DNA of 64,000 nucleotides, from NCBI RefSeq assembly GCF_036010505.1, contig NZ_CP108569.1:5695001-5759000 (forward strand). The letters are read 5' to 3'. Under the pieces are notes generated by a model. It had not been told where the DNA came from, searched no databases, and saw nothing but the letters and a program-made list of their open reading frames with translations. Positions 489 through 12,767 of this stretch are shown piece after piece. The stretch's first letter is position 1, and every line of letters begins with the position of its first letter. Position numbers and translations under genes: made by a program. The stretch is from Streptomyces sp. NBC_01197. Lineage in GTDB: Bacteria; Actinomycetota; Actinomycetes; Streptomycetales; Streptomycetaceae.

Positions 489-1214
489 TCAGCCGGTGCG
501 CTGGGCGGGGAGTTCCGTCGCGGGCAGCGGCGCCAGCGAGAGCAGCCGGCCGACCAGGTCCCCGAACGGCCCGTCGGCGGGCTCCTCGCTCAGTATCCGG
601 CGTACGACCGCCGCCATCTCGGTGTCGTACGCCGCGCTCACCGCGGCCAGCGCGGCGAAGTCGTGCACCAGCTGCAATTCCAGCTCGGACCGCGGAATGC
701 TCCGCCCGTCGAGCCAGATCAGCGCGGTCGACTCGGCGAGCGACACCCACGACCTGACCACCAACTGGAGCCTGGCGGGCGGCTCCTGGACGTCCAGATG
801 GGACAGGATCTGGAGATACGCGGTGGTGCGGACCTCGTCGATCATCGCGTTGGTGGTGGTGGAACCCACGGCGGGGCCGCCGCGCATCAGCGCGGCGAAG
901 CCGGGCCCGTGCTCCTCGACGAAGTCGAAGAACCGCTCCATCACCCGCAGCAGCCGCGCCCCCAGCGGCCCTTCGCGCGGCTCGACGAACCGCTCGGCCA
1001 GCTCGTCGGCCGCGCGGCGCAGCGCCGCCTCGTACAGGCTCTGCTTGCCGGGGAAGTAGTGGTAGACGAGCGGCCGTGAAATGCCCGCGGCCGCGGCTAT
1101 CTCGTCGATGGAGACATCGTCGGGGGAGCGGTGGCTGAACAGTTCGAGCGCGACGCTGATCAGCTGCTGCCTGCGCTCTTCGACGCCCAATCTGCGGCGT
1201 ACCCCGGTCGTCAT
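489..1214 (-). CDS. TetR family transcriptional regulator
   Basis: A 241-residue TetR-type repressor. The N-terminal helix-turn-helix is clear: RRQQLISVALELFSHRSPDD followed by DEIAAAAGISRPLVYHYFPG (about residues 14-60). The C-terminal ligand-binding half is all-helical and typical in length. The frame is open to 1319, but ATG 1214 gives the standard short lead-in to the HTH (MTTGVRRRLGVEERR), so it is preferred. It is convergent with the tautomerase gene and downstream of the GH92 gene, from which a strong terminator separates it. The ligand and targets cannot be read from sequence. Confidence 0.88.
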   Translation of the reverse strand: MTTGVRRRLGVEERRQQLISVALELFSHRSPDDVSIDEIAAAAGISRPLVYHYFPGKQSLYEAALRRAADELAERFVEPREGPLGARLLRVMERFFDFVEEHGPGFAALMRGGPAVGSTTTNAMIDEVRTTAYLQILSHLDVQEPPARLQLVVRSWVSLAESTALIWLDGRSIPRSELELQLVHDFAALAAVSAAYDTEMAAVVRRILSEEPADGPFGDLVGRLLSLAPLPATELPAQRTG

Positions 1215-1360: not shown

Positions 1361-4300
1361 TCAGGCGGTGGCCACCGCGAAGACGTGCAGCACGCCGCCA
1401 TTCGTCGTGGACGGCAGCGTCACGCTAGCCAGCTGCTTGCCCGCCTGGAGTGTGACCGGCGCGGTCGCGAAGACCTCCGTGCCGACCGGGTCCGTACCAC
1501 CGCCCTGGACATCGCGGTACGGGGTGTGGACCGCGATCGTGTTGCCGAACGACGGCTTGTCCCCTCCGCCGCCCAGCGTCCAGTCGCTGAAGCCGATGTC
1601 CGCCTTCTGCGTGGTGCCGTCGGTGTACGTCAGCGTCGCCGTACCGCTGGCCGAACCCTCGGCCGCGCTGCCCAGCAGGCTGAGCTCCGTGGCGCCCTGC
1701 GCCGACGGGACGTTCAGCACCTGCGGGGTGTCCCCGGCCACCTCGATGTTGTCGGGGTCTCCGGCTGCCACCTTCGGCCAGGTGAAGTCGAAGCCGCCGG
1801 ACGAGACGGTACCCCCGGGTGTGGCCCCGGCCGCTGCCAGCGCCTTGCCCGAGTAGCTCCAGCCCTCACCGTCGAAGTTGGCCTGCGGGTTGTCGTCGTC
1901 GGAGGATATGGCCGTGCTGTTCCGGTTCCAGAGCATGCTGTTCTTCGTGGCGACGGTCACCGCGAACGACGTCTTCGGAAGCTCCTTGCCCGCCGAGGAC
2001 TTCAGTGTGACCGGGACCGTGTAGCGGCCCTCCGCCGTGCCGGACGCGGCCGACACCGAGAGCTTCGCGCTCGCCGCGCCGCCCGCCGGGACCGTGAAGT
2101 CGCCCTGCGCGGGCTGCACCGTGACACCGGCCGGCGGTGTCGCCGTCCAGTGCACCGTGGTCGGCTCCTGCTCCAGCGTCTGCACCTTGACCGTGATGTC
2201 CGCACCGGCGGCGCCGGGCTCGATCTTCAGCTGCTCGGGGGTGGCGCCGGTGAAGTACTTCACGCCGCCGCCCGGGAAGGACGGCGGGGCGTCGGCCGCC
2301 GCGCTGCCCCACGAGGTGTCCGCCTTGGCGCCCAGCGTGTAGTCGAGGGTGCCGCCGTGGGTGACCAGTGAGGCCGGGACCCAGGGCTTGCCGGACGTCC
2401 GGCCGTTGACCTTCAGCCCCTGGATGTACGTGTTGTCCGCCGAAGCGGCCGGAGCGTTGACCGTGATGGTCCGGCCGTGCCCGGTGTGCACCACCACGTG
2501 CGGGAACAACGGCGCCGAGAGCGTCAGATCGGCGCGGCTGGGGTTCTGCGGGTACATGCCGAGTGCCGAGAACACATACCAGGACGACATGGTCCCGGCA
2601 TCGTCGTTACCGGGAATGCCGCCCGGGGTGTCGGTCCACAGCTGGTCCATCTCCGCGCGGACGGTCTCCTGCGTCTTGTACGGGGCGCCCAGGTAGTCGT
2701 ACAGGTAAGGCGTGTTGATGTCCGGTTCGTTGGTCGCGTCGTAGCGCGTGTCGTCCTTCGCCGAGAAGTCGAACTTGCCGTCCGGCGTACGGAAGAAGGC
2801 GTCCAGCCGCTTCACGGCGCTGTCATCGCCGCCCATGGCGGACGCCAGGCCCGCGACGTCCGAGTACACCATCCAGGTGTAGCGGGCACTGGTGCCCTCG
2901 ACGAAGCCGCTGCCGGTGCCGGGTGTGAAGGTGCCCGCCCAGGTGCCGTCGGACTTGCGGTCGCGGATGTAGCCGCCCTGCGGCGTGGCGTTGGCGTCGA
3001 AGACGTTCGTCCAGTTGCCCGAGCGGTCCAGGAACTTCTTCGCGTCGGCGCTCTTCCCGGTCTGCCGGGACAGCTCGGAGAGACCGTAGTCGGCCGCCGC
3101 GTCCTCCAGGGTCTCGGCCGCGCCGCCCCAGCAGTGGCAGTTGTCGGAGGGTACGTACCCGAGCTTCAGGTACTTGTCGAGCGCGGGGCGCTGGCCCACG
3201 CACTCGACGTTGCAGCCGGAGCTGTCCGAGTCGTTCGCCGTCGGTACGGTCGCCGCCTCGACCAGCGACTTCAGTGCGCCCTTGACGTCGAAGTCATGGC
3301 CGCCGAACGCGTAGATCCCGGCGAGCGCGGCGTCGGACGGGTCGCCCGACATGACGCTCGTCTTGCCGTTCTCAAGGAGCCAGCGGTCCCACTCGCCGCC
3401 CCGCTGTCCCGCGTAGTTGTAGAGCGACTGTGCGTAGTCGCTGCCCGCCCTGGGGTTGAGCAGCGTCATCAGCTGCACCTGGGCGCGGTACTGGTCCCAG
3501 CCGGAGAAGGTGCCGTACTGCGCCTGCTGCCTCTTGGCCAGCCGGTGCGGCTTGCGGTCGGCGCCAAGATAGCGGCCGTCGACGTCACTGGTCAGCGTCG
3601 GCTCCAGCATGGAGTGGTAGAGCGCGGTGTAGAAGGTCGAACGCTGGGCGTCGGTGCCGCCGCCCACCTCGACCGACTTCAGCACCTTGTTCCAGGCGCC
3701 GGCCGCCTGCGACTTCACGGAGCCGAAGCTCTTGTGGGGCGCGTTCTCGGCGCGGAGGTTGGCTTCGGCGTTCTGCGGGCTGACATAGGAGACGGCGACC
3801 TTGGCCTGCGCCTCCGTGGTCCCGTCGGCGAAGGTGATGTACGCGCCCGAGCCCTTGCCCTCCACGGCGTTGCCGGACGAGCTGTAGCCCGTACCGCCGG
3901 ACGCCGAGGTGGACCCCGGGCTGACCGTGCTGTCCTTCCAGGTGCCGACCTTGGCGAACGCCTTGTCGAAGTGGGCGGTGAAGTACAGCGTGTACAGGTC
4001 GTGCCGGTTGTTCGCGCTCTGCGGGCCGCAGAAGTTGCCCGCGGTGACGGAGCCCGTCACGGTCCGGGCCGCCTTGTCGATCTTCACGGTGGCGTCCGTG
4101 CTGCCGCTCTCCGAGTTGGAGGTGCGGAAGAGCATGCTGGCCGGCTTGTCCTTGGGGAAGCCGAACTGCCCGGAGCCGGTCCGTGGAGTCGTGGTCAGCG
4201 CGGCGGACGCGCCGTTGTCCAGGCCGACCTTGTAATAGCCGGGCGACGCGCTCTCGTTGGCGTGCGAGAAGCTGCTGGCGTACTTGGCGTCGGTGGTGTC

Positions 4301-4711
4301 CGCGCTGGGCGACGAGTCGACATCGCCCGTGTACGGCATGATCGGGATGTCGCCGTTCGCACCGGAGCAGCCCACCCCGTTGAGGTGGGTGAGGCTGAAG
4401 CCGCGGATCTTCGTGGCGTCGTACTGGTAGCCGCCGGGCGCGGGTGTGGAGACCTGCTTGCCCCTGGAGTTCTGCGGGCTCCAGGCCAGCATCCCGAAGG
4501 GCTGCACCGCGCCCGGGTAGGTGTTGCCCGCGTTGGCGGAACCGATCAGCGGGTGGACGTACGACACCGGGTCCTTGACGGTGCCGTGCGAGGATGCGGC
4601 CGAGGCGGGGGCGGCGGTGGCCGCCATCCCCAGAGCGGCCATGGCGGTCACCACGACGGAGCTGAGCGCTCTGGTCCCGGTGCGCGTCCGACGGCTGTGC
4701 GTGTCTGACAC
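1361..4711 (-). CDS. Secreted GH92 family alpha-1,2-mannosidase
   Basis: A 1116-residue exported glycoside hydrolase family 92 enzyme (calcium-dependent exo-alpha-mannosidases acting on N-glycans and mannans). An Arg-rich n-region, a hydrophobic core and APASA form a Sec-type signal peptide (about residues 1-40). The GH92 domain follows (about 45-790), with family motifs YVHPLIGSANAGNTYPGAVQ, FSGWDQYRAQ, FVEGTSARYTWMV and GGIPGNDDAGTMSSWYVFSA, the last carrying the catalytic-region acidic residues. A NEW3-like beta domain follows, then a roughly 200-residue C-terminal beta-rich domain common in Streptomyces secreted hydrolases. GTG 4711 is chosen because AGGAA lies just upstream; the open frame to 4891 covers a repeat-bearing leader. 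An operator-like palindrome lies upstream. Confidence 0.92.
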   Translation of the reverse strand: MSDTHSRRTRTGTRALSSVVVTAMAALGMAATAAPASAASSHGTVKDPVSYVHPLIGSANAGNTYPGAVQPFGMLAWSPQNSRGKQVSTPAPGGYQYDATKIRGFSLTHLNGVGCSGANGDIPIMPYTGDVDSSPSADTTDAKYASSFSHANESASPGYYKVGLDNGASAALTTTPRTGSGQFGFPKDKPASMLFRTSNSESGSTDATVKIDKAARTVTGSVTAGNFCGPQSANNRHDLYTLYFTAHFDKAFAKVGTWKDSTVSPGSTSASGGTGYSSSGNAVEGKGSGAYITFADGTTEAQAKVAVSYVSPQNAEANLRAENAPHKSFGSVKSQAAGAWNKVLKSVEVGGGTDAQRSTFYTALYHSMLEPTLTSDVDGRYLGADRKPHRLAKRQQAQYGTFSGWDQYRAQVQLMTLLNPRAGSDYAQSLYNYAGQRGGEWDRWLLENGKTSVMSGDPSDAALAGIYAFGGHDFDVKGALKSLVEAATVPTANDSDSSGCNVECVGQRPALDKYLKLGYVPSDNCHCWGGAAETLEDAAADYGLSELSRQTGKSADAKKFLDRSGNWTNVFDANATPQGGYIRDRKSDGTWAGTFTPGTGSGFVEGTSARYTWMVYSDVAGLASAMGGDDSAVKRLDAFFRTPDGKFDFSAKDDTRYDATNEPDINTPYLYDYLGAPYKTQETVRAEMDQLWTDTPGGIPGNDDAGTMSSWYVFSALGMYPQNPSRADLTLSAPLFPHVVVHTGHGRTITVNAPAASADNTYIQGLKVNGRTSGKPWVPASLVTHGGTLDYTLGAKADTSWGSAAADAPPSFPGGGVKYFTGATPEQLKIEPGAAGADITVKVQTLEQEPTTVHWTATPPAGVTVQPAQGDFTVPAGGAASAKLSVSAASGTAEGRYTVPVTLKSSAGKELPKTSFAVTVATKNSMLWNRNSTAISSDDDNPQANFDGEGWSYSGKALAAAGATPGGTVSSGGFDFTWPKVAAGDPDNIEVAGDTPQVLNVPSAQGATELSLLGSAAEGSASGTATLTYTDGTTQKADIGFSDWTLGGGGDKPSFGNTIAVHTPYRDVQGGGTDPVGTEVFATAPVTLQAGKQLASVTLPSTTNGGVLHVFAVATA

Positions 4712-4726
4712 CCGTTCCTGCCCTTC

Positions 4727-4780
4727 GTGTGTGACGGACTCGTGTGTGACGATTCGTGCGAGACGGACTTGTGTGTGACG
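4727..4780. repeat. Short tandem repeats in the GH92 leader
   Basis: GTGTGTGACG occurs exactly at 4727-4736, 4742-4751 and 4771-4780, with a degenerate copy at 4756-4765, giving a period of about 15 bp. The array lies 16-69 bp upstream of the GH92 start codon, probably within the 5' untranslated leader. Confidence 0.75.
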
Positions 4781-4838
4781 GGCGGTCAACATGTGCTGAA
4801 CAGGAGCGCCGTCGACCACTCCGGAACGGCGCTCGCCC

Positions 4839-4850
4839 GACAACGTTGTC
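4839..4850. promoter_or_regulatory. LacI-type operator upstream of the GH92 gene
   Basis: GACAACGTTGTC is a perfect 12-bp palindrome, 128 bp upstream of the mannosidase start. On the minus strand it reads TTGACAACGTTGTC, so the half-site overlaps a good -35 hexamer (TTGACA). CpG-centred palindromes of this form are typical LacI-family operators before Streptomyces sugar-utilisation genes. No LacI regulator is encoded in this window. Confidence 0.65.
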
Positions 4851-4880
4851 AACGACGTGAGGATGCTCCTCCTGCCGGTC

Positions 4881-4915
4881 CGGGGTGTCAAGGCTCCGCA
4901 GGCCTTGACACCCCG
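4881..4915. terminator. Terminator downstream of the ferredoxin reductase operon
   Basis: A perfect 13-bp stem (4881-4893 with 4903-4915) and a 9-nt loop lie 17 nt beyond the reductase stop codon. There is no strong T-tract, as is usual in Streptomyces. It separates the di-iron/reductase operon from the GH92 promoter region on the same strand. Confidence 0.75.
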
Positions 4916-4931: not shown

Positions 4932-6014
4932 CTACAGATCGAGGACGAGCCGCCCGCCCCGCGCCCGTGACACGCAGATCAGCATCGAGTCGTCCCGCTC
5001 CGCGTCCGTCAGCAGCTCGTCCCGGTGGTCTATCTCGCCGTCGATGACGCGCTGTTGGCAGGTCCCGCAGAAGCCCTGCTCGCAGGAGTACGGCACATTC
5101 GCCACCTCCGCGCGGACGGCGGCCAGCACCGTGGAGCCGGGCGCGACCGTCACCGTACGGCCGGAGCGGCGCAGTTCGACGTCGAAGCTGTCCGCGTCCG
5201 CCGCATCTGCCGCCTGCGGTGCGAACCGCTCCAGATGGAGCGCGGCTCCGGCCGGGAGCGCAGCCGTCACCGCTTCGAGCAGGCCCTCCGGGCCGCAGCA
5301 GTAGTACGCGGTCCCCGCCGGGTCGTCCCCGAACTCCAGGCCAGGGTGGCCCAGTTCGTCCTGCGGGACCACCGTGACGCGGCCCGCGCCCCCGCCCAGC
5401 TTCTCGGCCTCCGCCAGGAACGGCATCGAGGCGCGCGTACGCCCGCAGTACACCAGCCGCCACCGCGCGCCCGCCGCTTCGGCCGCCCGGAGCATCGGCA
5501 GGACCGGGGTGATCCCGATGCCGCCCGCGACGAAGACGTACGAGGCGGCTTCGACCAGCGGGAAGCGGTTGCGGGGGCCGCGGATCTCGATCTCGGCGCC
5601 CTCGTGGAGCTGTTCATGGACCTCGCGGGAGCCGCCCCGGCCGTCCTCGATCAGCCGGGTGGCGACCGTGTACGCCTCCCGGTCGGCCGGGTCCCCGCAC
5701 AGCGAGTACTGGCGGACCAGGCCGGACGGCAGTACCAGATCCAGATGGGCGCCCGGCGTCCAGGCGTCGAGCGGTTCGCCGGACGCGCTCTCCAGCCGGA
5801 GCCGCACGACGCCGTCGGCCTCCGGGGCGCGCTCGGTGATCAGCAGCCGCCGGCCGACGGTCCGGTGGCGGCCACGGCCCGAGACCGGCGGCTCCAGCGC
5901 GGGCAGCGGCCAGAGCGGGGACGCGGCGATACGGCGGTGCAGGGCGCGCTTGGCGAGCAGGGCCGCACCGGCGACCAGAACGACCGTGTGGACGCGGGGC
6001 GGGGGCGGCGCCAT
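4932..6014 (-). CDS. Membrane-anchored NAD(P)H:ferredoxin oxidoreductase, PDR/VanB type
   Basis: A 360-residue electron-transfer flavoprotein. An N-terminal hydrophobic segment (about residues 8-24, VVLVAGAALLAKRA) suggests membrane attachment. The flavin domain has RQYSLCGDP, the nicotinamide domain GGIGITPVLPM, and a C-terminal plant-type 2Fe-2S domain has CEQGFCGTC plus a distal Cys in LICVSRA, giving the usual four ligands. Phthalate dioxygenase reductase/VanB-type proteins pass NAD(P)H electrons to an oxygenase. Its ATG lies one base from the end of the preceding di-iron protein gene, so the two are almost certainly co-translated and probably partners. Total length and domain order are normal apart from the anchor. 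Confidence 0.88.
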   Translation of the reverse strand: MAPPPPRVHTVVLVAGAALLAKRALHRRIAASPLWPLPALEPPVSGRGRHRTVGRRLLITERAPEADGVVRLRLESASGEPLDAWTPGAHLDLVLPSGLVRQYSLCGDPADREAYTVATRLIEDGRGGSREVHEQLHEGAEIEIRGPRNRFPLVEAASYVFVAGGIGITPVLPMLRAAEAAGARWRLVYCGRTRASMPFLAEAEKLGGGAGRVTVVPQDELGHPGLEFGDDPAGTAYYCCGPEGLLEAVTAALPAGAALHLERFAPQAADAADADSFDVELRRSGRTVTVAPGSTVLAAVRAEVANVPYSCEQGFCGTCQQRVIDGEIDHRDELLTDAERDDSMLICVSRARGGRLVLDL

Positions 6015-6015
6015 C

Positions 6016-6960
6016 TCAGTGGGCTCCGTTCGCGGTGGCGGCAGTCGGGACGGTGGAATTCGCGACGGTGGAATTGGATGCGGGGGAGTTCGCGGCCGGC
6101 GAGTTCGCGAGATAGGCGACGGCCTGCGCCGTGCTGCCTTCCTGCGAGGGGTGGTAGGTACGGCTCAGATACCCCGGCACGGACCGGGCGATGGCCCCGG
6201 TCGTGGGCAGCAGCCCCTGCTTGCCGCGCCGGTGGTAGGCCCGCAGGGTCGCCCGGCCGTCCACAAGCAGCGGATCGTTCTCCATGAAGAATCTGACGCC
6301 GCGCTGCCAGAGGAAGACCAGTGCGGAGAAGGCGGTCGCCCAGGTGCGCACCCTGCGGCGGTAGCCGCCGTCGATGTGCTGGAAGACCTCGAAGGCGACC
6401 GACCGGTGTTCGACCTCCTCGGCGCCGTGCCAGCGCAGCAGGTCCAGCATGGTGGGATCGGCCCCGCGCCGGTCGAGCGCCTCCGCGTTGAGCACCCAGT
6501 CGCCGAGGAACGCCGTGTAGTGCTCGATCGCGGCGATCGTCGCGACCCGCTCCTTGAGCCACCAGCGGCTCGCCCGGCCGGGCGGCAGCGTCCGGTCGCC
6601 GAGCAGCTTCTCGAAGAGCCAGTCGACCTGGGCGGTGTACGGGGTCGGGTCGAGCCCCTGCGCCGCGAGGTGGGGGAGCACGTCGTCGTGTGCCTGCGAG
6701 TGCATGGCCTCCTGGCCGATGAACCCGATGACGTCCTGGCGCAACCGCGCGTCCCGGATCAGCGGCAGCACCTGCTTGTAGACGTGCACGAACCAGCGTT
6801 CGCCCGCGGGGAGCAGCAGATGCAGCACATTGATGGTGTGCGTGGTGAACGGGTCACCGGGCACCCAGTGCAGCGGGGTGGACTCCCAGTCGAAGGAGAC
6901 CTTGCGGGCCTTGAGTGCTATGTGTTCCGAAGCCACCGGGGCGGGCTGCGTATTAGACAT
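6016..6960 (-). CDS. Ferritin-like di-iron protein (metal-dependent hydrolase family, COG3687)
   Basis: A 314-residue protein of the family usually labelled predicted metal-dependent hydrolase (PF10118). The sequence shows a four-helix di-iron pattern: Glu54 (GERWFVHVY), Glu84-x2-His87 with His91 (GQEAMHSQAH), Glu147 (AIEHYTAFLG) and Glu183-x2-His186 (EEVEHRSVAFE). This matches the E, ExxH, E, ExxH layout of oxygen-activating ferritin-like enzymes better than a hydrolase site. The C-terminus carries pentapeptide repeats of the ANSPA/ANSTV type. It is first in an operon with a ferredoxin reductase (1-bp gap). My inference is an oxygenase or desaturase fed by that reductase; the substrate is unknown. 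Confidence 0.85.
   Translation of the reverse strand: MSNTQPAPVASEHIALKARKVSFDWESTPLHWVPGDPFTTHTINVLHLLLPAGERWFVHVYKQVLPLIRDARLRQDVIGFIGQEAMHSQAHDDVLPHLAAQGLDPTPYTAQVDWLFEKLLGDRTLPPGRASRWWLKERVATIAAIEHYTAFLGDWVLNAEALDRRGADPTMLDLLRWHGAEEVEHRSVAFEVFQHIDGGYRRRVRTWATAFSALVFLWQRGVRFFMENDPLLVDGRATLRAYHRRGKQGLLPTTGAIARSVPGYLSRTYHPSQEGSTAQAVAYLANSPAANSPASNSTVANSTVPTAATANGAH
6057..6116. repeat. 15-bp tandem repeats at the 3' end of the di-iron gene
   Basis: Four degenerate 15-bp units (6057-6071, 6072-6086, 6087-6101, 6102-6116) of the form GAATTCGCGACGGTG encode Ala/Asn/Ser-rich pentapeptides near the C-terminus. They are in frame and look like slippage expansions of a disordered tail. Confidence 0.8.
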
Positions 6961-7042
6961 GGCGTCAATGTACCGACGGGTACGCCCAAGGGACAGGGCC
7001 TTGCACGCAGCCGTCCGGCCGCGCGAGCGCCGCGGGCCCCCG

Positions 7043-8986
7043 TCACCGCAGCGCGCCGACCCGGGTCCCGTTCGCCAGCCGTCCGGTCAGCTGCGCCTTC
7101 GTCCCCTGCTTGGCGGGCAGGGCGAGCAGCGGGCCGATGGCGCTGCCCGTGATGCCGCCCGTCGTGGCCAGCGAAGTGAACTGCGCGCTGCCCGCCGCCA
7201 GTACGTACCACTGCCCGTCGCGGGACTTCCACAGCACTCCGGCGAGCACCCGTGGCTGCCGTTTTCCGCAGGCCGGTGAGTTCTCCGACCGGGCCACCAC
7301 CGTGTCGGGATCCGGCCCCCGGCCGCCCGGGACCCGGAACTGTGCGAGCACCCGGCTCCCGGCGCCGCGCCAGGTCTCCGCGCGGGTGCAGAGCCAGGCC
7401 GCCCGGCCGCCCGCGGCCGGCAGTTGCTGGGAGGCGAACTGCCAGGAGTTCACCGTGCGTACGCCGTGCGAACGGACCACGGGGAGCAGGCAGGCGGTAT
7501 GCGCCCAGCCCGACAGGTCCGCCGCACCCGTCACGTCGTGCGGCCCGGTCGGCGGACCCGCGAGCAGCCGGGCCGGGGGCAGCTCGCCCAGGTCGGTGAA
7601 GAGATGCGTGCCCGCACCGTCGCCCAGCGCGAGCGCGTTCCAGGAGGTGCAGGTACGGGAGGCACCGGGGCCCGGTACCGGGTCGGTGACACCGTCGGCC
7701 GCGCGGGCCAGCGGCCGCGCCCCCGCCGCAGGGGCGAGCAGGTCCCGCACGCTCGCGCCCCGCACCCAGGGCGCCGTCAGATAGCGGACGTTGCCGTCGG
7801 TCCTGCCGACGACCAGCGCATCCGAAGCGACCTCGTCCGCGCCGTCCACCCGCGCGAAATCCAGCGCGGTGCCTCCGCCGCCGTCCTTCGCCTCCGCGTA
7901 CCGCACCACCCGAAGACCGTCGTAGAGCAGCACGACCACCGCGTCGTCCACCGTGCCCGCGTACAGCAGCTGCGGCGCGCCCATCGGCGGCCCGGCGGGT
8001 GTGCCGGGGGTCGCCGAGACCTGTACGGAGTCGCCGGGGCGGGCCCAGACGGCGAGCGCGCGCCGCAGCAGCGCCGTGTCACCGGTGCGGTCGCCGCGCA
8101 CAGGCCAGACGGAGAAGTCGGTACGGGCCGACGCCTTCCACGCGGTCCCCGCGACCCGGGTCAGCTTCGCCGGGTTCAGGGCCTGCTCGGAGACCGGGTT
8201 GCCGGTGTACGCCGGTGCCGCGGTCCGCCCGGCGCCCAGACCGCCGGCCGGCAGCGCCAGCAGCGTCCCGCACACCAGGACGGCGGCGGCCGAGGCCAGC
8301 GCACCCCGGCCGCGGCGTCTGCGCCGCAGCAGATCGGTCGGCCTGGCCTGGAGCGAGCAGGGGTCGAACGCGGCGGACGCCAGCAGCCCGTACTGCGCCG
8401 ACGGGCCGTCCGCCCGGTCGAGCGCCGTTCTGGGGTCGGCCACTCCGGCGGCCTCCAGCACCCGCCGTACCCGGGTGTCGTCGAGCCCTTCGAGGCCGCG
8501 CAGCGCGTACGCGGCGCGGGCCGGCCCGGAGAGGGCGGAGAGCCGCTGGTCCAGGGCGAGTTCATCGGCGCCGCCGGACCGGGGGAAGAGCCGCAGTCCC
8601 CACACCTGGGGCAGCAGCGGAGGCAACTGGGCGCGGCGGGGCCAGGCGTTCCACCGCCGGGGCCGCGCGACCTCCAGCGCCGCCGCGACCACCCGGCCCC
8701 GCACATAGGCGTAGGCCGGGTCGCAGTCGTCCGCCCGGCGCGGCGACGGAAAGGAATCGGCCGCCCCGGACCGCCGTCCGCGCGGCAGCGCCCGCTGCGC
8801 GATGGAGTGGGCTGTCAGCACCCGGCGGTTGCGGCCGAGCGACGGCGGCAGGATCAGATACGCCAGCCGGACCAGCCGGGGGTAGTGCTCGACGAGCGCG
8901 GCCCCGGCCTGTCCGGTGTCGACATCTGCGGCATCGGCGGCGGCTGAGTCGGACGCGGGGCGACGGGTGAGATCCTTTGGCGGCAC
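7043..8986 (-). CDS. Membrane protein with sigma-factor-like N-terminus and exported domain (paralogue 1)
   Basis: A 647-residue protein of no named family. About residues 28-46 (ALVEHYPRLVRLAYLIL) resemble ECF sigma region 2; residues 140-190 (DELALDQRLSALSGPARAAY and the following helices) resemble a degenerate region 4. A juxtamembrane FDPC-x4-RPTDLLRRRR motif (207-224) precedes one transmembrane helix (about 229-250). About 390 exported residues follow, with four cysteines (CTSW, TACLL, WLCTR, PACGKR) that could form two disulfides. It is a clear paralogue of 46143-48137, sharing all these motifs. The start is GTG 8986. Whether it still binds RNA polymerase is unknown; a membrane-tethered regulator is an inference. 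Confidence 0.75.
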   Translation of the reverse strand: MPPKDLTRRPASDSAAADAADVDTGQAGAALVEHYPRLVRLAYLILPPSLGRNRRVLTAHSIAQRALPRGRRSGAADSFPSPRRADDCDPAYAYVRGRVVAAALEVARPRRWNAWPRRAQLPPLLPQVWGLRLFPRSGGADELALDQRLSALSGPARAAYALRGLEGLDDTRVRRVLEAAGVADPRTALDRADGPSAQYGLLASAAFDPCSLQARPTDLLRRRRRGRGALASAAAVLVCGTLLALPAGGLGAGRTAAPAYTGNPVSEQALNPAKLTRVAGTAWKASARTDFSVWPVRGDRTGDTALLRRALAVWARPGDSVQVSATPGTPAGPPMGAPQLLYAGTVDDAVVVLLYDGLRVVRYAEAKDGGGGTALDFARVDGADEVASDALVVGRTDGNVRYLTAPWVRGASVRDLLAPAAGARPLARAADGVTDPVPGPGASRTCTSWNALALGDGAGTHLFTDLGELPPARLLAGPPTGPHDVTGAADLSGWAHTACLLPVVRSHGVRTVNSWQFASQQLPAAGGRAAWLCTRAETWRGAGSRVLAQFRVPGGRGPDPDTVVARSENSPACGKRQPRVLAGVLWKSRDGQWYVLAAGSAQFTSLATTGGITGSAIGPLLALPAKQGTKAQLTGRLANGTRVGALR

Positions 8987-9054: not shown

Positions 9055-12000
9055 TCAACTCAGCGACCAGCCACTGAAGTCCACGGTGCCGCGCATCCCG
9101 TTTCCGCCGTTCGTCGCACTCATGAAGATCCCCGTGTCCTGGCTGCCCGCCGCACTCGGCACGGCGACGGTGGCGACCGTGCGCCAACTGCCCCCGCCGT
9201 CCGTCGAGAAGGAGCCGGTGTACGCCGTGCCCGCCCGGGTGAGCCGCAGCACGACCGGTGCCTTGATGCCGGTGACGCGCTTGTAGGTGTCCAGCGCGCC
9301 GTCGCCGTCCGTGTCGTACGAGAGCACGACGCCCTGGCCCGGCGTCACCGCCAGGTTCAGGAACCCGGCCGAGCCCGGGGTCGCCAGGCTGTTGCGTACG
9401 ACGATGCCGGACCGGGCCCAGCTACCGGTGTTGTCCTGGGAGTCCACCCGTACGGTCACGCTCGTGCCGTCGGACATCGCCCCCGCGCGGAACGCGGTGC
9501 CGAACTGGGTGGTGCCCTTCCACAGGTCCTGCCCGCCGCCGTTGATCGCCAGCCGATCGTCCAGCTGCCCGAACACCGCGTCGTTGCCGGTGTACGTCCG
9601 CCACCCGTCGGCGAGCGGACCGGCCACGTACACCGCGCTCTGCTCCCGCACATCCACCTGCTTCTCGCCCTGCGGTCCGAACCGCGTCACGAGGGTGTAC
9701 GGCATCGGGCGCAGCGGAGTGGTCAGCGGGTCGGCGGGGGCGGTGACCTGCCAGGAGACCGAGCCGGACGCGCCAGGGCCGACCCTCTTCAGGGAGGTGC
9801 CGCCCTTCGGCGCCGCGTCCAGGCCGGTCAGCGTGAAATCGACCTGGCCGGTCGCGCGCAGCCCGTTGAGGTTACGGAAGCCGGCCGTGACCGTGCCGGT
9901 GCTGCCCGGGGTGAAGGCGACGGGCTGGGCGGAGACGGTGGCGGCGCCCTGGTACGGGGCCGTGGCCAGAGTGTCGTACACCCGCTGCGCGGTGCGGTAC
10001 GCGTCGCCGGTCGCCTTCACGGGGTACGAACCGGTCCGGTGGGTCCAGGACTCCTCGTCCGGGTACCAGTCGAAGGTTTTGGCACCCCGGCCGTCGGCGA
10101 GCGCGGCCGCCAGTTCGTCCAGGAACGCCTGCCACTGCGGGAGATGGACGTCGCTGAGCAGCCCGTGCCAGTCGCGGTTCGCGTAGTTGCTGAGGTGGTC
10201 GGCGGCGGTGCGGTCACCCCAGGTGGTGATGAGGGTGCGGGCCGTCCACTCCAACTGCACCGCCTCGGCCGGGCTGGTGGCGAAACGCTTGGCCTCCTCA
10301 AGCCAGGGGCCGAGCAGGAACGCCTGGTGGCAGCCGGCCAGGGTGTCGGCTAGCCGCATCAGCTTCAGCCAGAGCACGGACAGCGCCCGGAGGGTGGCGG
10401 CGTCCTTGCCGGTGTAGGCGTCGTGCAGTTGGGGCAGCAGGATCCGGCCCCGGTCGGCGAGGGCCTGCCGGGCGAGGTCGACGAGGTCGTAGCGGTAGGC
10501 GTCCGAGCCGCGCAGCGGTGCCCGGACATCGAGCAGTGCGGCGAAAGCGGTGTCGAACCCGGCGGTGTCGAAGGCGGACTTCACGGAGGCGGTGAGGCTG
10601 GGCCGACGGGCGAAGAGCGAGTCGACCGGACGTCCGTCGGTGGTGGTCAGCTGGTACGCAGTCGTGGCGAGCGCGGCGAACGCCGTCCGCGCGGCGCGGT
10701 CGTCCCCGCCGTAGCGCACCCCGGCGTACTGGGTGAACCACGCGGTCCGGTCGATCTTCTCGGTGCGCCAGGCCAGTTCGCTGAAGAGCTCGAAGGCGGC
10801 CGGGTCGCGCTCGGCGGCCTCCGGCATGTACGCGGTGCCGGCCAGCGCGCTGCCCGGCTTGTCGCGCCACGCGGTGAACTTCTCCGTCCAGCGGTCGGTG
10901 TCGGCGCCGATCGTCGTACGGCCGCCGAAGTCGGGGATGGAGCCGAAGGCGTACGGCGCGCCGCCCCAGGTCTTCTCGCGGTCGGTGACGGTGTCGATGT
11001 CGGAGAGCCCGTCGACGATCAGGATCCGGTCGGTGTCCACGGCCCGGAGCAGTTCGGCGCGCGGGTTGGCTCCCCAGCCGAGGATGACCCAGGTGGCGTC
11101 GGGGTGGACGGTGTGCAGGGCTGTCTCGACGGCCCGCGCGGCATCGGCGACCGGGACGTCACCGGGGGTGCCGCCCTCGTGGAGCAGGTCCATCTTGAAG
11201 TGTTCGGCGTCGCCGAGGAGTTCGGACTGGTGCCGGTAGAAGGCCGCGGCCACCCGGTCGAACACCTCCGACCTCGGGTCGAGCCAGTCGGGGCGTCGCA
11301 GCCCGTTCCAGGTGCCCTGCGGGACGACGTCGGCGCCTGGGTTGCGGTCCGGGAACCCGTCCGGGACTGTCCCGAAGTAGCCGGGGAACACCGGGTGCAT
11401 GCCCAGCTCGCGCAGCCGGTCGGCGATCCGCCGGCCCAGGTCGGCGCGCCGGTCGATCAGCGCGGTGGAGAGCGGGCCGCCGTATCCGCTCATGTTCTGG
11501 AGGAGCCACCAGGGCTGGTGGGAGGGGGCGGGCAGCCAGGTGCGGGCCTCGGTGTCGGAGTACCCGAAGTCCTGGAGCAGCCGGTGGTAGACGGCTTCCT
11601 GACCGGGCGTGATGAGGACTTCGTTGCAGCCGTGCAGGGCCAGCACGTCGATCGTCCGTTCCCAGTGCGGCCAGTCCGCGTACGGGGCGGTGTAGCCGTC
11701 GTGGGTGTCGTTGAGCGCGAAGCGGTGCGGGACAGTCGCCGACTGCTGGATGGCCTTGCCGGGGGCGGGCAGCCGCTTGGGCAGGTCGAGCTGCGAGGTG
11801 TTCCACGAGATGTGTGCCCGGCAGACGTACTTGAGGTACCAGTGGACGCCGGTCAGTGCAGTGGCGGGGCCGGTGGCGGCGACCTCGATCCGGCCCGCCG
11901 AGCCGGCGACCCGGAAGCGTTCCCCACCGGTCAGGGGTGTGAGCGTGAACTGGTCGGCGTGGAGCGGCAGCAGACGCTTCAGGGCCGCGCGGGCCGGTCC

Positions 12001-12165
12001 GGTGTCGAGCGGCTCCGGTGCGGCGGGGGAGTGGCTCATGGGAAGGCCCAGGGGAAGGGCGGCCGGTGCGCCGGCCGCTGCGGCGGGGGTCTGCGCGCCG
12101 ATCACGGCGCCGGCGCCGATCACACCCGCGGTGCTCAGCAGCGTACGTCTGGACAGCTCGTGCAT
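9055..12165 (-). CDS. Tat-exported GH89 alpha-N-acetylglucosaminidase
   Basis: A 1036-residue secreted exo-glycosidase related to human NAGLU; the family removes terminal alpha-linked GlcNAc from glycans. The N-terminus MHELSRRTLLSTAG is a twin-arginine signal, cleaved near AAAAG. The NAGLU body (about 50-720) shows the family stretches DGYTAPYADWPHWERTIDVL, NMSGYGGPLS, FKMDLLHEGGTPGD (carrying a probable catalytic Glu) and FGSIPDFGGRTTIG. A C-terminal beta-sandwich of about 170 residues (ADGWRTYTGNDAVFG onward) resembles DUF1349/concanavalin-like modules and probably binds carbohydrate. ATG 12165 is chosen over GTG 12171 because GAGGAG sits 5 nt upstream of the ATG and overlaps the GTG. Confidence 0.92.
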   Translation of the reverse strand: MHELSRRTLLSTAGVIGAGAVIGAQTPAAAAGAPAALPLGLPMSHSPAAPEPLDTGPARAALKRLLPLHADQFTLTPLTGGERFRVAGSAGRIEVAATGPATALTGVHWYLKYVCRAHISWNTSQLDLPKRLPAPGKAIQQSATVPHRFALNDTHDGYTAPYADWPHWERTIDVLALHGCNEVLITPGQEAVYHRLLQDFGYSDTEARTWLPAPSHQPWWLLQNMSGYGGPLSTALIDRRADLGRRIADRLRELGMHPVFPGYFGTVPDGFPDRNPGADVVPQGTWNGLRRPDWLDPRSEVFDRVAAAFYRHQSELLGDAEHFKMDLLHEGGTPGDVPVADAARAVETALHTVHPDATWVILGWGANPRAELLRAVDTDRILIVDGLSDIDTVTDREKTWGGAPYAFGSIPDFGGRTTIGADTDRWTEKFTAWRDKPGSALAGTAYMPEAAERDPAAFELFSELAWRTEKIDRTAWFTQYAGVRYGGDDRAARTAFAALATTAYQLTTTDGRPVDSLFARRPSLTASVKSAFDTAGFDTAFAALLDVRAPLRGSDAYRYDLVDLARQALADRGRILLPQLHDAYTGKDAATLRALSVLWLKLMRLADTLAGCHQAFLLGPWLEEAKRFATSPAEAVQLEWTARTLITTWGDRTAADHLSNYANRDWHGLLSDVHLPQWQAFLDELAAALADGRGAKTFDWYPDEESWTHRTGSYPVKATGDAYRTAQRVYDTLATAPYQGAATVSAQPVAFTPGSTGTVTAGFRNLNGLRATGQVDFTLTGLDAAPKGGTSLKRVGPGASGSVSWQVTAPADPLTTPLRPMPYTLVTRFGPQGEKQVDVREQSAVYVAGPLADGWRTYTGNDAVFGQLDDRLAINGGGQDLWKGTTQFGTAFRAGAMSDGTSVTVRVDSQDNTGSWARSGIVVRNSLATPGSAGFLNLAVTPGQGVVLSYDTDGDGALDTYKRVTGIKAPVVLRLTRAGTAYTGSFSTDGGGSWRTVATVAVPSAAGSQDTGIFMSATNGGNGMRGTVDFSGWSLS

Positions 12166-12767
12166 CGGCACTCCTCGTGTTGCGCGTCAATGCTGCTGAC
12201 GGTCCGTGCGATGACAGATGCATGCGATGCGCACGGTAATGACGAGGGGCAGGTGGAGCAATGGGGCGCACAGGTTCGGGTGCGTAAAAGCGGCCCGGTT
12301 CCATCTTTCGGCCCGCCGAATCCAGGATTGACAAGGTGGGGAGTTGGGTATCACACGGCGATCCCGAACTGGGCGATTTCGTTCTGTCAGTGGCTTGGTC
12401 GCTGTCCGGGTGCGTGGGTGATCTGCATTCCGTAATGAACAGAATCAGGTCCGAGGAGGGCCTGAAATCGTACGCCTGGTACACCAGGTACTGACCTGCG
12501 ACGATCTTCTGCGGGCACGCCGCGGTTCGTGGGCATTACGGCTGGATCCGGGTGCAATCGGCGTCGCTGGGTCCGAACTGATTGATGAAATGCGCCGCAG
12601 CGTACGGCCGTTGCATTCGAGCGGTCGGCATTCAAGCCGCTCAAGGGGAGGGCCGGTCCATCACCTGGCCGGAAACGTCCGCGTTCATGGCTCATGTGTG
12701 CTGTTTCGCGGGACGCCAAAGTCGAACTGAATAAAACGGGACCACGGACCGTGCCATGCCCCCTGCC
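12166..12767. other. 602-bp intergenic region with one inverted repeat
   Basis: No convincing gene is present; short frames here lack coding character. It is less GC-rich than its neighbours (for example GAATAAAACGGG near 12730). The clearest structure is CCTGGT-AC-ACCAGG at 12475-12488, a 6-bp inverted repeat that could be a regulator site. On the minus strand it holds the GH89 promoter and the 3' end of the response-regulator transcript. Confidence 0.6.

Follow-up and report, generated by a model that had tools for sequence, protein, structure and literature searches.

A PF10118 protein of Streptomyces named as a hydrolase reads as a predicted ferritin-like di-iron enzyme with a reductase partner, and possibly as a lipid epoxidase

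Among di-iron proteins, ribonucleotide reductase (RNR) R2 and the R2-like ligand-binding oxidases (R2lox) have two-His metal sites, and we know of no partner reductase of the PDR/VanB type for either of them. A two-iron epoxidase with its own electron supply is BoxB, described as a benzoyl-CoA epoxidase that is reduced by BoxA/NADPH (PMC5489048). Regarding the fate of epoxides, the hydrolase domain of Mycobacterium tuberculosis EphD is reported to have epoxide hydrolase activity on 9,10-cis-epoxystearic acid and to modify epoxymycolates in M. smegmatis (PMC7998700). Here we analysed a gene pair of Streptomyces sp. NBC_01197 that encodes a protein of family PF10118 (Metal_hydrol) and a reductase; the whole stretch of DNA that was analysed, hereafter the window, is 64,000 nucleotides long (contig NZ_CP108569.1, positions 5,695,001 to 5,759,000 of the forward strand). 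An earlier reading of the sequence alone (the sequence-only reading) had proposed that the pair may be a membrane-associated oxygenase system, and its individual claims are taken up below with the results that bear on them.

The PF10118 gene occupies positions 6016..6960 of the window on the minus strand and encodes 314 amino acids, predicted to form a ferritin-like di-iron oxygenase. It is followed on the same strand by the gene of a PDR/VanB-type reductase (4932..6014, 360 amino acids), the predicted electron donor to the PF10118 protein, and a single base (6015) lies between the TGA of the former (6018-6016) and the ATG of the latter (6014-6012), exactly as the sequence-only reading had stated. 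The product of 6016-6960 matched PF10118 over profile positions 1-246 of 247 (E 2.1e-76; 257.3 bits against a gathering cut-off of 33.2), in line with the hydrolase annotation ascribed earlier to the family, and no NCBIfam model matched it at E <= 1. In the reductase, Fer2 (2.5e-13) and NAD_binding_1 (4.4e-6) scored above the Pfam cut-offs and FAD_binding_6 below; the motifs RQYS at 101, GGIGITP at 164 and Cx4Cx2C...C from 311 follow the order flavin, NAD and C-terminal 2Fe-2S of PDR/VanB reductases (IA-type), and the protein matched phthalate dioxygenase reductase in the PDB (2pia, residues 56-360, E 8e-52). The three functional parts claimed for the reductase were thus borne out. On the other hand, the N-terminal membrane anchor claimed for it was not: the hydrophobic run comprises 12 residues, followed by basic residues, with a hydropathy value KD19 of 1.32, and the segment is missing from a natural fusion described below. 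Among 65 orthologues (window included) from the Streptomyces genus group of our genome sample (121 genomes; hereafter the genus), the median KD19 was 1.25, and 4 of the 65 reached 1.6 or more. Since the run is short and weak by hydropathy, a membrane span is not supported; the transmembrane-anchored reductase was rejected on hydropathy alone, and the term 'membrane-associated' is unsupported for the pair, although the reductase N-terminus may touch a membrane.

The pattern E, ExxH, E, ExxH of ferritin-like di-iron enzymes, which the sequence-only reading had recognised in the PF10118 protein, was indeed present, with E54, E84, H87 and H91 as given; however, the last three residues had been numbered one too high (E146, E182 and H185, not 147, 183 and 186) and H178 had been missed. 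Once H178 is counted, the last motif is HxxxExxH. All eight residues were invariant in 440 of 440 aligned relatives, some of these rows having been collected with a pattern that spans columns 177-184. The predicted model (pLDDT 93.5) was all-helical and placed the conserved Glu and His residues on four successive core helices, a disposition judged by helix assignment, not by distance, and opposite to the scattered arrangement that had been named as speaking against a two-iron site. The top structural matches of the model were R2, R2lox and CmlI. On the basis of invariance, model and fold matches, all of these residues except H91 are candidate ligands, H91 being a further invariant residue. By sequence, neither the single protein nor an 18-row profile gave a significant PDB chain match (the profile's top row was 4-chloro-allylglycine synthase, E 0.52). 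No heme-oxygenase-like dimetal oxidase was recognised by name among the 50 structure matches listed, and this absence is not used as evidence. Taken as a prediction from model and conservation, the assignment of the PF10118 protein to the ferritin-like dimetal-carboxylate enzymes, and with it the di-iron site proposed earlier, is well supported; the 'hydrolase' in the family name is not, a di-iron redox enzyme being the reading that the evidence favours.

In the genus, PF10118 gave 100 matches in 80 of the 121 genomes, and 99 loci were examined (one fragment was omitted, and the window genome's own two are included). Among the 98 determinable loci, 68 had a reductase directly downstream of the PF10118 gene, and the remaining 30 had a fusion of an alpha/beta hydrolase with a short-chain dehydrogenase (SDR) directly upstream and no reductase; the 99th locus is cut at a contig end. 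Two of the 68 reductase-type loci additionally carried an alpha/beta hydrolase upstream. Thirteen genomes that carry the hydrolase-SDR class alone were picked, and in seven of them nothing matched this reductase at E <= 1e-40. A wider comparison was made with 80 named loci from one genome scan, assigned from their record titles to the actinobacteria (32) or the proteobacteria (48): a same-strand reductase homologue lay within 6 kb at 26 of the 32 actinobacterial loci and at none of the 48 proteobacterial loci in the flanking DNA examined, which short contigs limit in some cases. A natural fusion occurs in Streptacidiphilus melanogenes (L101), where a single open frame of 634 codons encodes both the di-iron protein and the reductase, the latter lacking its N-terminal segment; this is a single case in which an assembly error is possible, and viral contigs scanned for the fusion protein yielded four pattern matches and no relative. 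In a quick tree of 106 PF10118 members, the reductase label needed 3 changes versus 31.8 with shuffled labels, and all 39 reductase-labelled rows fell in one actinobacterial clade of 41 (SH-aLRT 96), whose two unlabelled rows were L029 and L007, the latter with no reductase found across 10 kb. The tree excluded the partial loci L020, L039, L061 and L103 as well as the window itself (L001), and its label 'none' for L006, L011, L013-L015 and L017 is based on 1.5-kb flanks. A control set of 29 loci, 106 kb in all, contained no match at E <= 1e-15 to the PF10118 protein, to the reductase or to the epoxide hydrolase considered below, and a single TetR match. These results support the reductase as a dedicated partner of PF10118 in one actinobacterial clade, where the family does stand beside a reductase. 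The dedicated reductase of the sequence-only reading therefore holds for this clade, by adjacency, fusion and tree, and not for the whole family: given the 48 proteobacterial loci and the 30 genus paralogues without it, a claim that covers all of PF10118 would go too far.

The second recurrent neighbour of the family was an alpha/beta hydrolase, whose gene shares the strand of the PF10118 gene at 67 of the 80 named loci (27/32 actinobacterial and 40/48 proteobacterial), 62 of them adjacent; the 13 loci without it were L031-L033, L036, L038-L040, L061, L071, L087, L100, L107 and L109, of which L038, L061 and L087 are situated at the end of a contig. The PDB entries that matched this neighbour best were epoxide hydrolases, and the linkage of PF10118 to a same-strand epoxide hydrolase across two phyla is new. 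Wherever the full fusion was scanned, it matched NCBIfam NF004514, and 49 of 77 homologous hydrolase frames (loci L001-L110) were fused to an SDR in the DNA examined. Epoxide hydrolases of the alpha/beta type work with an HGxP motif, an Asp nucleophile, two cap Tyr residues, an acid and a His. In 70 homologues, after 7 of the 77 had been dropped as too short to align, HGxP, the Asp in HDWG, each cap Tyr and the His were present in 70/70 and the acid Asp in 68/70, indicating that the neighbour enzyme of the relatives has the full epoxide-hydrolase active site, in the same domain order as the EphD-type fusions (NF004514); M. tuberculosis EphD is likewise built in this way. In the sister locus L101 an epoxide hydrolase-SDR gene lies directly upstream of the di-iron-reductase fusion, in Embleya (L030) it is located after the reductase, and three genus genomes with only a reductase-type PF10118 gene (G107, G128 and G182) have the hydrolase fusion elsewhere in the genome. 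A genome-level co-occurrence of PF10118 and hydrolase-SDR (10/12 vs 6/186 over the cut-off) was not used as proof, because it is confounded by kinship, all 8 genus genomes in that sample having the hydrolase-SDR family. A link to a missing step of mycolate epoxidation was also dropped, the 'yet to identified enzyme' in PMC3859598 concerning trans-cyclopropanation. As a separate observation, a MerR-type gene family, so named from the one member scanned, recurs near the hydrolase-SDR/PF10118 cassette at 15 loci of Pseudomonas, Nevskia and actinobacteria, including L060:4003-5010.

We see about an even chance that the pair is a two-component O2-dependent mono-oxygenase, fed by the reductase, that would epoxidise acyl lipids or other lipids at a C=C bond; for the substrate and the reaction we infer from the gene neighbours of the relatives. 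NAD(P)H would supply electrons, carried by the flavin and then by the 2Fe-2S domain to the di-iron site, where O2 would be bound and activated and one O atom put into the substrate as an epoxide; in the relatives, the epoxide hydrolase, often SDR-fused, would convert this epoxide into a diol, which it would then oxidise. If this is right, the nearest working model by function would be BoxB/BoxA, to which the pair is likened by description only, no kinship being claimed. Several observations weigh against such a scheme, at least as a uniform picture. The window pair has no epoxide hydrolase beside it, a difference from the EphD-type arrangement, and the single full-length hydrolase-SDR match of its genome abuts the second PF10118 gene (G000:C1:3838303-3839103). 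Moreover, 9 of the 80 named loci yielded neither reductase nor hydrolase, and the same held within 1.5 kb for 5 of 19 phylum-sample loci (L006, L013, L014, L015 and L017) and for 6 of 10 plasmid loci taken from 75 records (L022 and L025-L029). Several of these partnerless members are distant, yet those at L014, L015, L022 and L029 share 38-47% identity with the window protein. Gene surroundings vary widely among the annotated plasmid members: the distant members on Mycolicibacterium plasmids L026 and L027 lie near an SDR gene and two FAD/NAD(P) oxidoreductase genes, between which a ferritin-like protein is annotated in L026 and a 'hypothetical' gene stands at that place in L027. Elsewhere PF10118 genes are clustered, with two each in two Nevskia genomes and three in a Moraxellaceae genome (L035, L037 and L103).

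The sequence-only reading had suggested a hydroxylase or desaturase. A di-iron enzyme of this kind, served by the same reductase and catalysing C-H hydroxylation or dehydrogenation of an acyl lipid without epoxidation, would suit the fold, ligand and reductase evidence equally well, and the window's own lineage is without an adjoining epoxide hydrolase; mycobacteria have desaturase-reductase pairs with a VanB-like reductase (DesA3 and Rv3230c). However, it does not account for the epoxide hydrolase, complete in its active site, that accompanies PF10118 on its strand at 67 of 80 loci from two phyla, and these neighbours of the relatives argue for an epoxidase rather than a hydroxylase or desaturase. 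We regard it as rather unlikely, though the most serious of the alternatives. Improbable in our view is an R2lox- or ferritin-like redox protein without small-molecule oxygenation, engaged in metal oxidation, radical generation or peroxide removal, whose metal site the reductase would reduce. R2 and R2lox do lead the structural matches, whereas the linkage to epoxide hydrolase and SDR genes in the relatives argues for a metabolic substrate; in addition, identity between these proteins and the PF10118 protein is only 8-14% despite the fold match, and the latter has four conserved His.

An amine N-oxygenase like AurF or CmlI (PF11583), using the same 4-Glu/3-His site, appears slightly less probable still. 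CmlI is among the structural matches, and the motif order E, ExxH, E, HxxxExxH matches the PF11583 alignment, in which E89, E120/H123, E170 and H196/E200/H203 of row A4, presumably the AurF ligands, correspond to E54, E84/H87, E146 and H178/E182/H185 of the window protein. This likeness is one of similar working and not of membership: no Pfam match to PF11583 was obtained at E <= 1, hhalign gave probabilities of 0.03% and 1.7% against the AurF family, by which sequence kinship to AurF was rejected, and the window family differs by its extra invariant H91 and by the dedicated reductase of its clade. Regarding gene context, a nitronate mono-oxygenase gene follows the PF10118 gene on a Tsukamurella plasmid (L029:6035-7015), which would suit nitro-compound chemistry, and plasmid L024 has genes for an amidase and a monoamine oxidase at a distance of a few kb; the recurrent neighbours, however, are epoxide hydrolase, SDR and reductase genes and not those of amines or nitro compounds. 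Two AurF-family genes stand back to back on opposite strands in the window's genome (G000:C1:2230269-2232184), and similar divergent pairs occur in other genus genomes. Finally, a true metal-dependent hydrolase beside an operon neighbour of unrelated role is very unlikely, as it is favoured by the family name alone and its reuse in one genome-mining paper, which counts PF10118 among protease groups (PMC8960859), and is opposed by the carboxylate-rich two-metal motif set on a ferritin-like fold, by the in-frame reductase fusion and 68/98 adjacency, and by a literature search, limited to one library, in which no PF10118 member with a tested activity turned up.

The usual gene order in the genus is di-iron protein, reductase and TetR regulator. 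A same-strand gene of the TetR_C_46 type followed the reductase at 62 of 65 genus loci whose reductase is >55% identical to that of the window. The three other loci are the window's own (L001, with a short flank), L204, which is its near twin, and L209. The window's TetR gene lies at 489..1214 on the minus strand (the open reading frame is listed as 489-1319, and homology starts near the ATG at 1214) and is parted from the reductase by a GH92 glycosidase gene (1361-4891, minus strand). In L204, too, a GH92 gene comes after the reductase. Since a homologue of this gene was found only in the window and L204 among the 99 genus loci, in the flanking DNA examined, it looks like an insertion into the operon. 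A close relative of the window TetR has a solved structure (2qib, E 4e-124); its top-scoring NCBIfam model was FasR (NF053731), at 64.4 bits against a cut-off of 330, which makes FasR distant kin below the equivalog level. FasR senses long acyl-CoA (PMC7382501), and the TetR regulator of the operon may likewise respond to an acyl molecule.

A conserved element, TACCCGTCGGTACATTGACG (6963..6982, minus strand), immediately precedes the di-iron gene and is a putative promoter/operator. At 59 of 65 loci, counting the window, its core GTACATTG lies in the 120 bases upstream, and a longer core occurred once each at 65 of 97 loci with at most two mismatches, counted across locus types together. In the window's own genome, the full element matched exactly once, and its next closest matches were two sites that differ at three positions; one of these two (L250) lies near another gene, which we take to be that of glyceraldehyde-3-phosphate dehydrogenase. 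The sequence TACATT at 6972-6967 stands six bases ahead of the ATG, which hints at a leaderless promoter and so at a possibly leaderless transcript of the di-iron gene. The palindrome TACC-N-GGTA was rejected as operator: it was found at only 2 of 65 loci, the window and L204, and the conserved element differs from it. Beyond the element, the next gene upstream (7043-8986, likewise on the minus strand) encodes a 647-residue protein without Pfam match, with homologues found at 53 of the 99 genus loci, and an alpha-N-acetylglucosaminidase (NAGLU) gene (9055-12171, minus strand) is a second glycosidase gene near that of GH92. At the scale of the genome, SDR matches are mirrored at the ends of the main contig (G000:C1:17826-66074 and 7561756-7610004), indicating a linear chromosome with terminal inverted repeats that reach at least about 66 kb inward.

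Taken as a family, PF10118 reads as a new family of a known enzyme kind with an unusual partner set. It is carried under a misleading name by 80 of the 121 genus genomes, and 48 of its 80 named loci are proteobacterial. More tentatively, and with some doubt on our part, PF10118 might be a widespread, misnamed lipid epoxidase family that would form, with EphD-type fusions, a path from alkene through epoxide and diol to ketol in actinobacteria and proteobacteria; one actinobacterial clade would then have acquired a dedicated PDR/VanB reductase, and the Streptomyces branch of that clade a TetR switch responsive to acyl compounds. If the family consists of di-iron mono-oxygenases, a large family of O2-activating enzymes would be opened, with partner genes that make the reaction testable, and PF10118 would be a candidate source of the epoxides or epoxy-lipids on which EphD-type enzymes act.
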